Positions 19,434-30,523 of a stretch of DNA of 64,000 nucleotides are shown one piece after another. The position numbers and the translations under genes were made by a program. Numbering within the stretch: the stretch's first letter is position 1; the number at the start of each line of letters is the position of its first letter. The notes under the pieces are model-generated. The model did no database searches. It had not been told where the DNA came from and saw only the letters and a program-made list of their open reading frames with translations. This stretch comes from Myxococcaceae bacterium (GTDB lineage Bacteria; Myxococcota; Myxococcia; Myxococcales; Myxococcaceae), in contig JAIBBR010000007.1 of assembly GCA_019694575.1 (NCBI GenBank), forward strand, positions 1-64,000, read 5' to 3'.

Positions 19434-22943
<3,510 letters not shown>

Positions 22944-25326: not shown

Positions 25327-25878
25327 TCAAGCGAGCATCGCGTGGAGCGCTTGCACGGTGTTCCAGTTGCGCGTGGTGACGGTAGAACCGGCTGCTTTGT
25401 CCATCACCGCGGGGGTGATTTTCGATGCCCCGGCGCCTTTTTTGAAATCAATCCACAACGCTCCGTCGCCCAGCAACTGGGCGTCTTCGCCGAAAGTGGC
25501 GCGGTCTAAAATTCGCTCCACCGCGCCGTCTCGCGGTGTTTTTTTCGAAAGCCCGAGGAGCAGCATATGGGGCCGCTCCTTTTGCGCTTGAGGAAAAGGG
25601 CTGCCCGCCGCGTAGCTGCTCCACTGGGCTTGGGTACGCACGATGACTTCGACGGTGAACCCGAAGTGAGCGGCGATGGCTTTTTCGAGCGCGGCTTCGG
25701 CCTGCGCGGGCGTGCGGTGAGAGGCGAAGACCAAGTTGCCGCTCTGAATGTACGTGGCGGGCGCGGTGAAGCCGCAGGCTTCGGCGAGTTGTCGCAGCGT
25801 TTGCATCGGCACTTTCTTGTTGCCGCCCACGTTGATACCGCGCAGCAGCGCCACCATTTTCGTCGTCGCCTTTTTCAT
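25327..25878 (-). CDS. DUF1697-family protein
   Basis: Protein of 183 residues matching DUF1697: MVALLRGINVGGNKKVPM at the N-terminus, TYIQSGNLVFASH and a C-terminal segment with TTRNWNTVQAL. The motif LLRGINVGG.. is characteristic, but biochemical function in the family is not established as far as I know. No signal peptide. I chose ATG 25878 because the preceding nine codons are not in the family pattern. It is divergent from the sigma factor gene, with a 240-bp shared region containing a GGTGGG/CCCACC inverted repeat (25927-25947). Confidence 0.9.
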   Translation of the reverse strand: MKKATTKMVALLRGINVGGNKKVPMQTLRQLAEACGFTAPATYIQSGNLVFASHRTPAQAEAALEKAIAAHFGFTVEVIVRTQAQWSSYAAGSPFPQAQKERPHMLLLGLSKKTPRDGAVERILDRATFGEDAQLLGDGALWIDFKKGAGASKITPAVMDKAAGSTVTTRNWNTVQALHAMLA

Positions 25879-26118
25879 GCGGGTGCGCACTGTATGCGAA
25901 GGCACGAAGCGTTGGCTTTACAGGCCGGTGGGCCCAAGACACCCACCAGGGTGAACATTGTACGGCACGTTTTTCTTGGCCTTTCCTCTCGTTCGATGAA
26001 CCGCATGGCCGTGTTTGTTTTGACCGAGCACTGACGACCGGGAGACATTGCCTTGCTTGCTGCCTGTTCTCTTTTCGTTGTCTGCGAAAACACCCGTGCC
26101 CCGGTAAGACGGCGAAAC

Positions 26119-26616
26119 ATGTGGACCGCGGCGGCGATTGAGGAGCTCTATAAGAAATATAGCTATGGCGTCTTTCGCCGTTGCCGGGCCTTGGTGCGCA
26201 ACGACGCCGAAGCGAATGATCTCACGCAAGAAGTCTTCGTCTATGCGCTCGAGCAAGGAGCGCGGTTTCAAGGCCGCTCATCAGTCTCGACATTTCTCTT
26301 CGGGGTTGCCACGCACTTGTGCCTCAACCACATTCGCAACCGCGTTGCGCGTGGTGCAAGTTGGCAAAACCAAGTCGCATGGGAAACAGATGAAAGCGCT
26401 CCACCGCCCGACCACGCGCTGAGCGCCGCGCAAATTTGGCAGGCTGTATTGGCCGCGGCCGATGAGGTCACCGCGCAAATCGCCGTCTACCATTTCGTCG
26501 ATGGACTGCCGCAGGGAGAAATTGCCCAGCTCGTCGGCTATTCCCGTGTCACCGTCAACCAGCGGCTGCAAGCCTTTCGCGACCAAGCCCGAAAACTCGC
26601 TGAGAATCTGCCATGA
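26119..26616 (+). CDS. RNA polymerase ECF-type sigma factor
   Basis: Sigma-70-family factor of 165 residues. Region 2 covers YSYGVFRRCRALVRNDAEAND then LTQEVFVYALEQ and TFLFGVATHLCLNHIR; region 4 covers EVTAQIAVYHFVDGLPQGE and the helix-turn-helix IAQLVGYSRVTVNQRLQAF. ECF factors are usually held by an anti-sigma factor, and the next gene encodes such a candidate. ATG at 26119 is chosen for protein length and fold; a TTG at 26053, with GGGAGA eight bases upstream, would add 22 residues and cannot be excluded. The stop overlaps the following gene (ATGA), which in turn overlaps a caspase gene. Confidence 0.88.
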   Translation: MWTAAAIEELYKKYSYGVFRRCRALVRNDAEANDLTQEVFVYALEQGARFQGRSSVSTFLFGVATHLCLNHIRNRVARGASWQNQVAWETDESAPPPDHALSAAQIWQAVLAAADEVTAQIAVYHFVDGLPQGEIAQLVGYSRVTVNQRLQAFRDQARKLAENLP

Positions 26617-27332
26617 ACTCCCACCCGTCGGCCTTGTTTTGGGCGCGTTATCTGGCGAACGAATTGTCTTTTCTCGAACGATGGCGCTTTCAAAGGCACT
26701 GTTCACGTTGCTCCCGATGCGCTCAAGCGCTTGCCCGGGAGCAGACAGAACGGCAGGTTTTCGATGCGGCTCCTGCGCGCAAGCTCGACCTTGCTGTTTT
26801 GCAGCGTCGCTTCGCAAAAGGTGTTGACGCACCTGAGACGATGCGTGTTTCGAAATGGGCTTGGGCCTTCGCGGTTCCCTCGTTTGCCGCCGCCATGGTG
26901 CTGTGGGTGATGGCGCCTAGACCTGACACCCAGACAGCCAAAGGCGCCGACTTTTTCACCGTCGTGACCAAGCGCGGAGATGACGTGAAGAGCCTGGGAG
27001 CCACCTGCGCTCCCAAAGACCAGGTGCGCGCTCGGTTCAGGAGCAGCCAGCGCTACTTGTTGATTGTCGGCGTTGATGCCACGGGCGACGTGCAGGTGCT
27101 GTACCCAATGGGAGGCATATCGTCGCAAACACTTTCTGACACCGAAGGCCTGTCGCCGGGCAGTTGGGAGCTCGATGAAAAACCCGGTACCCAACGCTTC
27201 ATTGCCTTTTTCTCAGAGAAACCCTTAGCGGTGAGCGACGTCACCAGGGTTATTCGCGCGAAAGGTGCGTCAACGCCTTTGTTGCCGAAAGTGAACGTGG
27301 TGGAGCAGCGCTGCGAAAAGAGCGCTCCATGA
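26613..27332 (+). CDS. Membrane anti-sigma-like protein with zinc-finger and DUF4384-like domain
   Basis: Protein of 239 residues. The first 50 residues contain a Cys/His cluster (QRHCSRCSRCAQALA) resembling the zinc-finger anti-sigma motif HxxxCxxC. A single membrane helix follows (about residues 87-104, WAFAVPSFAAAMVLWVMA). The C-terminal part is periplasmic by topology and has the beta-strand pattern of DUF4384-like domains (RYLLIVGVDATGDVQVLYP, QRFIAFFSEKPLAV). I infer that it sequesters the sigma factor encoded just upstream and senses envelope signals. It overlaps the sigma gene and the caspase gene by four bases each, so all three are translationally coupled. Confidence 0.8.
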   Translation: MNSHPSALFWARYLANELSFLERWRFQRHCSRCSRCAQALAREQTERQVFDAAPARKLDLAVLQRRFAKGVDAPETMRVSKWAWAFAVPSFAAAMVLWVMAPRPDTQTAKGADFFTVVTKRGDDVKSLGATCAPKDQVRARFRSSQRYLLIVGVDATGDVQVLYPMGGISSQTLSDTEGLSPGSWELDEKPGTQRFIAFFSEKPLAVSDVTRVIRAKGASTPLLPKVNVVEQRCEKSAP

Positions 27333-28849
27333 GGCGCGCGGTATTTCTCTGCGGTGTGCTGTGTTGCGCGGGTGCTGAAGCGGGCGAAAGGGTCGCGCTC
27401 ATCGTTTCAAATGACACCGGTCTCTCAGATGATGCGCCGCTCAAGTACACCTCGGCCGACGCTGACCGCATTGCAGACGTGTTGACTGAGCTCGGCGAGT
27501 TTCAGCGGGCCGATGTACACCGCATGTCGGGTAAAAGCGCGGCAGAGGTTTTGAGCAAGCTCGACCAACTGGCGCTCGCTTCGAGCCGTTGGAAGACATT
27601 TTTCTTTTTCTACTCAGGCCATGCCGACGCGAGTGCGTTGCGCATGGCGGGCAGCACCCTGCCGTTTGACACCATGCGCCAACACCTGAGCGCGGTGAAG
27701 GCCGACTTGCATGTCTCTATTCTCGACGCATGCCAGTCAGGAGGCGCGGCGCGAACCAAAGGTGTGCGTGAAGCGCCGGCCTTCGACGTGCGCATCAACG
27801 ACGACGCTATCGAAGGCACGGTGTTCATCTCGTCGAGCGCACCTGACGAGCAATCGTACGAATCAGAAGATGCACGCGGGGCGGTGTTCACCTCTCACTG
27901 GACTGCCGGTTTGCGTGGCGCAGCCGATCGCGACGGTGACAACCAAGTCACCTTAGGCGAAGCGTACAGCTACGCTTATTCTCAGACGTTGCGCGCCACG
28001 CTGCTCTCGCGCGCCGGGCCTCAGCACCCGACGTATTACTGGAATTTTTCGGGCAAGCGCGACCCGGTGCTGACGGTGCTCAATACTTCGGCTCACCTCA
28101 CCATCGTCTCTGATGTCGACGCTCGCTACGTGCTGTTTGATGCGCAGGAGCGTGATGTGCTGGCAGAGCTTCCTATCGAAAGGGGCGACAAGCGGCGCGT
28201 GGCGGTGGCTCCTGGTGAATATGTGGTGAAGAAGCGCGGGGCCAATGGGCTTGCGGTGGCGCGTGTAGAAATCACCAAGGGCGATGACCGCATTCTGCAA
28301 GGGCAACAGATGAAGCCGGTGCCTTTTGTTCGCTTGGCACGCAAGGGCCCCTTGGGGGGCATGTGGCTCACCGCGGCGGCTGGACAATACGCTTCGGCGC
28401 TGGGCCCTTTGGGGCACCTGCATTTCGACTTGGGCGTCGAATGGGAACGGGGGCCGTGGCTTTTGTTCGGTGGGCTCTTGGTGGCAACCGGCAGTGAAAC
28501 GCAAGCCGGGCTGACAACGGCCGACACGTTGGTGGGCCTTACCGGAGGGGCGCTCTTTTCATTGAGACTGGGGCAAGTGGCGCTGCGTGCGGGACCTTTG
28601 GCGGGCCTCGCGTATGTTCGGCAAGCTTCTTTTGGACAAAAGCCGCGGCAGTCATTGGGTGCGTTGCTCACGCTGCGCGTGCGCCTCGACATTGACTTGG
28701 TAGAGCGGTTCAGCCTTTTCGCGCTGATAGACGGGGGCGCACAGGGTATTCGCCTCGCGGCTCGCCCTGAGCGCGATGGCTTCAGCATCGGTTCTTTTGG
28801 CGTGCTGGCGTACGCTTCTTATTCAGTGGGAGCTCGCTTTTCATGGTGA
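27329..28849 (+). CDS. Secreted caspase-family protease with PEGA-like and beta-barrel C-terminus
   Basis: Protein of 506 residues with a signal peptide (RRAVFLCGVLCCAGAEA). Residues 20-240 form a caspase (peptidase C14) domain: catalytic His98 in FFFYSGHAD and Cys135 in ILDACQSGG, the canonical dyad. Residues 255-330 have a PEGA-like beta domain pattern (RRVAVAPGEYVVKKRG). Residues 340-506 alternate polar and hydrophobic residues and end in GARFSW, with a C-terminal aromatic, as expected for an outer-membrane barrel. It may be a barrel-anchored protease exposing its caspase domain to the periplasm. It is coupled to the anti-sigma-like gene, so proteolysis in signalling is plausible (inference). 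Confidence 0.85.
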   Translation: MRRAVFLCGVLCCAGAEAGERVALIVSNDTGLSDDAPLKYTSADADRIADVLTELGEFQRADVHRMSGKSAAEVLSKLDQLALASSRWKTFFFFYSGHADASALRMAGSTLPFDTMRQHLSAVKADLHVSILDACQSGGAARTKGVREAPAFDVRINDDAIEGTVFISSSAPDEQSYESEDARGAVFTSHWTAGLRGAADRDGDNQVTLGEAYSYAYSQTLRATLLSRAGPQHPTYYWNFSGKRDPVLTVLNTSAHLTIVSDVDARYVLFDAQERDVLAELPIERGDKRRVAVAPGEYVVKKRGANGLAVARVEITKGDDRILQGQQMKPVPFVRLARKGPLGGMWLTAAAGQYASALGPLGHLHFDLGVEWERGPWLLFGGLLVATGSETQAGLTTADTLVGLTGGALFSLRLGQVALRAGPLAGLAYVRQASFGQKPRQSLGALLTLRVRLDIDLVERFSLFALIDGGAQGIRLAARPERDGFSIGSFGVLAYASYSVGARFSW

Positions 28850-28945: not shown

Positions 28946-30523
28946 ATGATGTTGAAGAAGACTTTGGTGATGGCTGCGCTGCTGCTCACGAGCGCTTGTG
29001 ACCCGATGCAAATACGGCCTGGAAGTGACTTCAAAATCGAAGTCACTTCGGCATTGCCTATTGTGCTGTACCAACAGGTCGAACCCGTAGAGTTGAAATT
29101 CACGTTGACTGGTTGCAAAAACTTCGACGTCGCTATCGCCAACGGTGATGGCACCCACGTCGAAGAGCACCTGCTCGACGTCGAGCCGCTGTCAGACGGC
29201 AGCTACAAAGCGCGCGTCGACGTGGCATCGTTGGTGGGGGCCCAAAATCACTGCGCCTACGACGAAAAGCAACCGGCAAACCCAGCGCCGCAGCTCGTCG
29301 CCCACTGCAACGACGATGCAAGAATCACCAAAAGCGAGCTGATGAAGGTGCAGTACGTCGCTTCTTGGCGTTCGGTGTGGCGCAGCCCCTATGGACCGGC
29401 GCAAACCATTTTTCCCGGAGCTGCTTCCAATGATTTTTTCGCCGTCGGCAACGGTACGCTGACTGCGCAAACACTCGATGCTTCACACCAAGCGTCGGTG
29501 GTGGCTGCGGTGAGTCCCGTTGAGCCGCCGCTGCTCGCTCAACAAGACAACCACATTTATCTCTGGGTCGGTTGCCCCCTGCCGAGCACCAGCGCATGCG
29601 GAATTTCAGACCCCATTCCGTTCGGCCCCAGCGCCACTTTTCCACAAGGGGGCTCGTTGAGCGTCAGCACGTCATTTCTTCAGTCGTACGAGCGACGTGC
29701 ATCGGGTTCACTCGTCGCCGGTGCCGCGGTGTCGATACCTCTTTCGGCAAAGCATCTCGCATTCGAAAAGACCGGAAACCTGATGGTGCTCAGCCGAATC
29801 ACTCCCACGCTGTTGACGCGTGTCGCCTGGGACTCAATACCCACCACTCAAGCTTTTTCGAACGAGGCTAACGCCACCTCGTTCTCGCGCTTGGGTGACG
29901 GCTCGCTGGTCTTTGCCGCGCACGATGCGACCAACGAAAGCTTGGGCCGGCTGCGTAACTCTGACGGCACTTTGTTGGCGGAGCCGATGTTACCGGGCAC
30001 GGGCAAGGTCAATTTACTTGCTGTCGCACCGACGGCAGCAGACGACAATGTTCCGATGGCCCTGGTTCGCAATAAAGTGCTGTGGCTTGGCTCTGCGCGC
30101 GGCGAGTGGACGCAGCTTCAAACAGCTCTCTTGGCCGACACTGACGTAATGCAGCGAGAAAACCCCGGCGCTGAAACGTGGGGTGTGGCATGGCTCGACA
30201 CCGGCGTGGTGTTGTGGACAGAAAAGGCGGTTGAAGTCTTCGAGCTCGCTGCGCCACATGCCCGTCGCTATGTCTATGTTCCGACGGGGTATTCTGCCAG
30301 TGCCCAACAACCACCGCGCATCAAGGGCGTGACCTGTGTGGGAGACAGCCTTGCACTTACCATGGCGACGGGCATTCGGTTGCTCGCGACCGATGGCCAT
30401 TTGAAGGGCGGGGCAGACCCACTGCCCTGCGGTTTGACTCCTCCGTCACGCGCGGTGGCGTTTGACAAGAGCACCGTAGCGCTGCCTGCCGGCGAGTACA
30501 CGTATGTCTTCACCGTAAACTGA
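28946..30523 (+). CDS. Lipoprotein of unknown function
   Basis: Protein of 525 residues with a lipoprotein signal: Leu-Lys-Lys then TLVMAALLLTSAC, with the acylated Cys after LTSA. GAGGAA is five bases upstream of the ATG at 28946 (a second ATG follows at once). The mature protein is beta-rich with repeated hydrophobic strands, and a middle region (FAAHDATNESLGRL, VLWLGSARGEWTQLQ) may form a propeller-like fold. There is no recognisable catalytic motif. It lies 97 bp after the caspase gene on the same strand and could be part of the same regulon. It converges with the Rieske-reductase gene 21 bp away. Confidence 0.78.
   Translation: MMLKKTLVMAALLLTSACDPMQIRPGSDFKIEVTSALPIVLYQQVEPVELKFTLTGCKNFDVAIANGDGTHVEEHLLDVEPLSDGSYKARVDVASLVGAQNHCAYDEKQPANPAPQLVAHCNDDARITKSELMKVQYVASWRSVWRSPYGPAQTIFPGAASNDFFAVGNGTLTAQTLDASHQASVVAAVSPVEPPLLAQQDNHIYLWVGCPLPSTSACGISDPIPFGPSATFPQGGSLSVSTSFLQSYERRASGSLVAGAAVSIPLSAKHLAFEKTGNLMVLSRITPTLLTRVAWDSIPTTQAFSNEANATSFSRLGDGSLVFAAHDATNESLGRLRNSDGTLLAEPMLPGTGKVNLLAVAPTAADDNVPMALVRNKVLWLGSARGEWTQLQTALLADTDVMQRENPGAETWGVAWLDTGVVLWTEKAVEVFELAAPHARRYVYVPTGYSASAQQPPRIKGVTCVGDSLALTMATGIRLLATDGHLKGGADPLPCGLTPPSRAVAFDKSTVALPAGEYTYVFTVN

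Follow-up and report, generated by a model that had tools for sequence, protein, structure and literature searches.

A caspase on a predicted outer-membrane barrel, encoded with an ECF sigma factor and a ZAS-type anti-sigma in Myxococcota, as a possible site-1 protease

Two described arrangements for signalling across the envelope to a sigma factor resemble the locus analysed here. The FecI-FecR-FecA system combines a sigma factor and a membrane anti-sigma with an outer-membrane barrel that carries a periplasmic N-terminal domain. The RseA/DegS/RseP and RsiW/PrsW/RasP systems work by regulated intramembrane proteolysis, in which a site-1 cut outside the membrane is followed by the action of a site-2 protease. 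Cell death is the usual context in which bacterial caspases are considered, and for most of them we know of no established physiological role or natural substrate. In ECF54 systems, CHAT proteases, which belong to the caspase clan, have been proposed to regulate the linked ECF sigma factor without an anti-sigma (PMC8999054). Four of the five metacaspases of Myxococcus xanthus are encoded in operons with sigma factors, and the same report extends this operon structure to Anaeromyxobacter, Haliangium, Sorangium, Ralstonia and Fibrobacter (Asplund-Samuelsson et al. 2012, PMC3501461).

Within the window, by which we mean the whole 64-kb stretch of myxobacterial DNA that was analysed, three genes overlap by 4 bp each. 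A preliminary description of this DNA had given the coordinates correctly, and both junctions (sigma/anti-sigma and anti-sigma/caspase) consist of the overlap ATGA. The genes are as follows.

26119..26616, + strand: ECF sigma factor gene (165 aa; Sigma70_r2, TIGR02937)
26613..27332, + strand: ZAS-type membrane anti-sigma-like gene (239 aa; 4-bp overlap with the sigma gene; profile match to solved anti-sigmas, AlphaFold pLDDT 87.8)
27329..28849, + strand: secreted caspase gene with C-terminal barrel (506 aa; 4-bp overlap with the anti-sigma gene; Peptidase_C14, AlphaFold pLDDT 90.7)

A long ORF upstream of the sigma gene (25327-25905) lies on the opposite strand. As judged from sequence and structural models, the operon pairs a predicted ECF sigma factor and membrane anti-sigma with a predicted exported caspase on an outer-membrane barrel. 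It most likely belongs to the same family as the sigma-70/metacaspase operons reported in 2012, of which there are several per genome; the accessible part of that report mentions no anti-sigma, barrel, lysine-glycine motif or mechanism (PMC3501461). Beyond the operon of 2012, the new elements are an anti-sigma partner, an outer-membrane barrel, a lipoprotein gene that is frequent downstream and a Lys-Gly motif common to anti-sigma and caspase; no description of the partner, the barrel or the motif in sigma-caspase operons was found in the literature searched, the coverage of which was incomplete. The gene order and a barrel with a periplasmic N-terminal domain are shared with FecI-FecR-FecA, but the window operon has neither a TonB-dependent receptor nor a FecR domain, and its periplasmic domain is a caspase. 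The resemblance to RseA/DegS/RseP and RsiW/PrsW/RasP would consist in a site-1 cut just outside the membrane followed by a site-2 protease, with the difference that the proposed site-1 protease is an operon-encoded caspase anchored in the outer membrane. ECF54 systems likewise link a caspase-clan protease to an ECF sigma factor, but they have a CHAT domain and are proposed to act without an anti-sigma, whereas the protease in the window is an exported C14 caspase barrel.

The first protein had been taken for a sigma factor, and this identification holds: Pfam finds Sigma70_r2 (PF04542, E 5e-14), and the TIGR02937 sigma70-ECF cut-off is exceeded (63.7 vs 42.9 bits) over residues 6-159, a span that includes region 4, for which PF08281 alone is under its Pfam cut-off. 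Upstream of 209 sigma genes the canonical ECF promoter GGAAC-N15-17-CGT was found once, against 2.8 occurrences expected from shuffles, and an enriched AACTT stems mostly from upstream coding sequence. Autoregulation of the sigma factor is therefore neither supported nor excluded by the promoter scan.

The second protein has three recognizable parts.

26697..26720, + strand: HxxxCxxC zinc motif of the anti-sigma, H29-x3-C33-x2-C36 (alignment of 65 sequences)
26853..26912, + strand: membrane helix of the anti-sigma, residues 81-100 (AlphaFold helix; hydrophobic segment)
26943..27329, + strand: DUF4384-like Ig-type ectodomain, residues 111-239 (DUF4384 E 1.8e-4, below cut-off; beta-sandwich)

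The Cys-rich N-terminus and membrane helix noted in the preliminary description are both found, the helix being part of an AlphaFold model (pLDDT 87.8) with N-terminal helices and a beta ectodomain from residue 114. Full invariance in the alignment (n=65) is limited to C33, C36 and K110, and H29 is kept in more than 90% of the sequences; H4 sits at what we take to be the spacing of ChrR. The HCC zinc residues are present in 190 of 228 adjacent anti-sigma/caspase pairs, and about one anti-sigma in six lacks them (reading REG, ADL, ASE or similar), the rest of the protein being kept, K-G included. Against Pfam the window protein scores 19.2 bits for zf-HC2 (cut-off 22.2) and 21.9 bits for DUF4384 (cut-off 27; E 1.8e-4), and at E<=0.01 these domains are found in 27/65 and 40/65 relatives, respectively; the DUF4384-like domain proposed earlier is below the cut-off in the window protein itself. 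Of 77 DUF4384 matches in 60 genomes, 57 have a listed caspase no more than 3 kb away. The profile built from the 65 anti-sigma sequences (A2) matches RslA (2.6e-5), ChrR (7e-5), DdvA (9.5e-4) and RsiW (0.0088), and by this match the middle protein is a ZAS-type anti-sigma, predicted to inhibit its sigma factor. These four proteins have the ZAS-type zinc domain in common with it; we know of none among them with a DUF4384-like ectodomain or a caspase partner. No zinc anti-sigma is among the fold-library matches listed for the model, these lists being filled by its beta ectodomain, which resembles macroglobulin and Ig-like domains (VIA Z about 8-9), a common arrangement.

The third protein consists of a protease domain, a small beta domain and a barrel.

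27386..28078, + strand: caspase p20/p10 domain, about residues 20-250 (structural match to caspase-7)
27620..27622, + strand: catalytic H98 (invariant, alignment of 67)
27731..27733, + strand: catalytic C135 (invariant, alignment of 67)
28091..28321, + strand: small beta domain, residues 255-331 (strands in the AlphaFold model)
28361..28843, + strand: eight-strand outer-membrane barrel, residues 345-505 (model strands; Foldseek match to Ail)

Pfam assigns the protein to Peptidase_C14 (E 1.2e-14, 55 bits vs a cut-off of 21.4), and its AlphaFold model (pLDDT 90.7) superimposes on caspase-7 (4jr2) with a VIA Z of 23.1 and an rmsd of 2.6 over 201 residues. The His/Cys dyad is exactly where it had been placed. 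D44, S96 and D133 are also invariant in the caspase alignment (n=67) and, on alignment to metacaspases, map to TbMCA2 Asp95, Ser156 and Asp211, S1-pocket positions with a role in accepting basic residues (PMC4357240; PMC6426788). The caspase bears the acidic S1 residues (D44, D133) of Arg/Lys-cleaving metacaspases (C14B), and cleavage after a basic P1 residue is predicted. The signal peptide claimed earlier is consistent with the outcome of a simple rule, which finds a hydrophobic stretch at the N-terminus of 214 of 228 caspases. As for the C-terminal 170 residues, which the preliminary description had read as an outer-membrane barrel, they are predicted to form eight long strands and not a soluble fold; Foldseek matches them to the outer-membrane protein Ail (3qrc, E 2.8e-7), and Pfam finds Opacity in 5 and OMP_b-brl in 2 of the 67 caspase relatives. 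The PEGA-like domain also suggested there corresponds to the small beta domain, which is present in the model, but the window caspase has no Pfam match to PEGA at E<=1; the label was dropped, and Pfam leaves the family of the domain unassigned. A subtype of about 680-830 residues ending in a WPGxxxGLRI-like sequence (L084, L091-L093, L096, L103-L106, L109-L114) may have a different or larger barrel at its C-terminus.

The source genome encodes six caspases of this family, all with same-strand upstream matches to sigma factor and anti-sigma; at one of them (L037) about 460 bp separate the end of the anti-sigma gene from the caspase ORF. Among the genomes surveyed, 51 of 60 have a family caspase, and a single myxobacterial genome can have as many as a dozen. 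Sigma and anti-sigma genes lie upstream of the caspase in 87 of 110 homologous loci, and exact 4-bp overlaps are found at 71/87 sigma/anti-sigma and 75/93 anti-sigma/caspase junctions, counts somewhat favoured by picking the start codons nearest to the overlap. The linkage of the three genes is far beyond chance, and their co-occurrence in other genomes, which the preliminary description had proposed to check, extends across Myxococcota. Of the remaining 23 loci, four are truncated on the upstream side because the contig or the stretch is short, four show an anti-sigma with the sigma factor not found, three (L043, L051, L107) have an anti-sigma with K-G lying downstream of their caspase (as does the sigma factor in L043), two have an anti-sigma on the opposite strand, and ten have no anti-sigma nearby. 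Named relatives are nearly all Myxococcaceae, Archangium, Anaeromyxobacter, or MAGs of Myxococcales or Deltaproteobacteria, and the anti-sigma/caspase pair also occurs in other classes of Myxococcota, with up to 22 anti-sigma matches per genome. One locus, L121, is on a 603-kb contig labelled Comamonas sp. KCTC 72670 (BNCN01000006.1) and is 67% identical to the myxobacterial query; this record may be misnamed or contaminated.

Both envelope proteins carry a conserved Lys-Gly motif.

26940..26945, + strand: conserved K110-G111 of the anti-sigma, just outside the membrane; candidate site-1 cleavage site (K 65/65, G 64/65)
27758..27763, + strand: K144-G145 loop of the caspase, nine residues after C135; candidate autoprocessing site (67/67)

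The distance from the catalytic Cys to the Lys is 9 in 218 of 227 caspases, and K144-G145 falls within a low-confidence stretch of the model (141-160). In the anti-sigmas a median of 13 residues separates the membrane helix from the Lys, and the distances on both sides of the motif vary. K-G is present in both partners in 214 of 228 adjacent pairs, with Arg at P3 in 170 anti-sigmas and 189 caspases, and 36 of 46 clusters at 50% identity have K-G in both partners throughout. Among the failing pairs are five in which no anti-sigma residue, and one in which no caspase residue, is aligned at the motif. In the 222 pairs in which both partners have a residue aligned there, five or six anti-sigmas (L210 depends on the alignment) and three caspases are without K, and all three K-less caspases are paired with K-less anti-sigmas (anti-sigma/caspase residues M/R in L309, R/R in L324 and R/A in L210). 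By simple arithmetic this co-loss has a probability of about 1e-5 under independence, a figure that is only indicative because the pairs are related and divergent; two of the three come from one taxonomic family, and all are divergent lineages. The anti-sigma Lys is replaced by Arg in four cases (L308, L324, L285, L210), which would be acceptable to a basic-P1 protease, and by Met in L318 and L309.

As a control, other zinc-finger anti-sigmas from the same or related genomes were inspected, and 1 of 15 has a near-membrane K-G; unrelated caspases are mostly without K-G at the position after the catalytic Cys. K-G was ruled out as a strict mark of caspase adjacency, since 18 of 23 unpaired anti-sigmas keep it (some of the 23 being near a differently arranged caspase or near the end of a stretch), as do family caspases without sigma/anti-sigma partners. 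This conservation in most orphans may reflect a structural role; with many caspases per genome, action in trans could also explain it. DUF4384-type anti-sigmas with K-G and no adjoining family caspase were found at L193, L202, L204, L208, L262, L296, L313 and L321. The one at L204 is followed by a matrixin-like ORF with the look of a metalloprotease, and a search for a replacement protease beside the orphan anti-sigmas showed no neighbour common to them.

The motif is a strong lead, and no proof, suggesting that the caspase cuts the anti-sigma. The preliminary description had left the caspase as sensor, effector or anti-sigma protease; the last role is favoured by the sequences, because of the Lys-Gly motifs common to both proteins and the conserved acidic S1 residues. 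We put at roughly 0.45 the probability of a self-contained transmembrane signalling module in which the caspase acts on its own anti-sigma as a dedicated site-1 protease, with the cleavage itself predicted. In the resting state the anti-sigma would hold the sigma factor. On a signal felt via the barrel, or if the barrel failed to assemble, the caspase would cleave its own chain at K144|G145 and the anti-sigma at K110|G111, a short way beyond the inner membrane. An M50 site-2 protease would then free the sigma factor to transcribe its regulon, perhaps including its own operon and the downstream lipoprotein gene. Genes for M50 site-2 proteases are found in the source genome (best E 1.1e-69), which is weak evidence, as every control genome has them too. 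Should the motif reading hold, one large caspase family would act in signalling, with both its substrate and the bond it cleaves predicted, so that the question of its role becomes directly testable, and a new kind of site-1 protease, anchored in the outer membrane, would join the known means of switching on ECF sigma factors.

Against a site-1 cut stand the Met residues that replace the Lys in some anti-sigmas (L318, L309) and the position of K110 at the rim of the folded ectodomain, and this position also fits a reading in which the two motifs are unrelated and structural, marking where the first ectodomain strand begins in the anti-sigma and anchoring the loop after the Cys in the caspase, with a merely coincidental dipeptide match. 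The nearly fixed Cys-to-Lys distance and the persistence of K-G in orphan proteins agree with such a reading, but it is harder to reconcile with the R-x-K-G context common to both proteins, the co-loss in three pairs, the low model confidence of both motif stretches and the variable distances flanking the anti-sigma motif; on balance we find it rather unlikely. Reach is another difficulty for the site-1 protease, as a caspase held at the outer membrane may not, by reasoning, get to a site about 13 residues from the inner membrane. It is for this reason that a variant is worth considering, very unlikely as we hold it to be, in which the barrel is an assembly sentinel: once folded it would keep the caspase away from the inner membrane, and on failed assembly the stranded caspase would cut K110|G111, each genome having several such switches, many tied to different surface lipoproteins.

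Two further readings dispense with cleavage of the anti-sigma. The barrel might bind a ligand or sense the envelope, and the caspase domain might touch the ectodomain and so change the grip on the sigma factor, as in a FecA/FecR/FecI-like relay, leaving the dyad for some other purpose. The identical gene order, the periplasmic N-terminal domain of the barrel and the link between DUF4384-like ectodomains and caspases would all be expected of such a relay; we nevertheless judge it unlikely, given a dyad invariant in 67 caspases, an eight-strand barrel with no TonB-dependent receptor fold, and the absence of a FecR domain in Pfam. Alternatively, the caspase might be an output of the sigma factor and not its regulator, a surface or periplasmic protease for cell death, predation or development made from an autoregulated operon. 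Co-expression implied by the gene overlaps and the lipoprotein gene often found downstream accord with an output role, as does the death role proposed for Myxococcus metacaspases in the 2012 report (PMC3501461). An output role leaves unexplained, however, both the motif common to the anti-sigma and the DUF4384-caspase association, and the usual GGAAC-CGT ECF promoter was not found upstream; we consider it distinctly improbable.

The operon possibly has a fourth member.

28946..30523, + strand: lipoprotein gene with lipobox LTSAC, possible fourth operon member (co-directional, 96 bp after the caspase gene)

A lipobox is present in 63 of 115 ORFs downstream of caspases, compared with 9.8% of background ORFs, many of these loci being orthologous and not independent. 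The family of the downstream lipoprotein differs by caspase subtype (RCC1 repeats, TIG, Big_5 or none), and the lipoprotein of the window has no match in any other of the 60 genomes. The downstream lipoprotein was rejected as a caspase substrate, its K-G frequency being that of the background (3.4 vs 3.2 per 1000 aa). Elsewhere in the window, at 19434-22943 on the minus strand, a large ORF resembles by eye a hybrid histidine kinase with several receiver domains.
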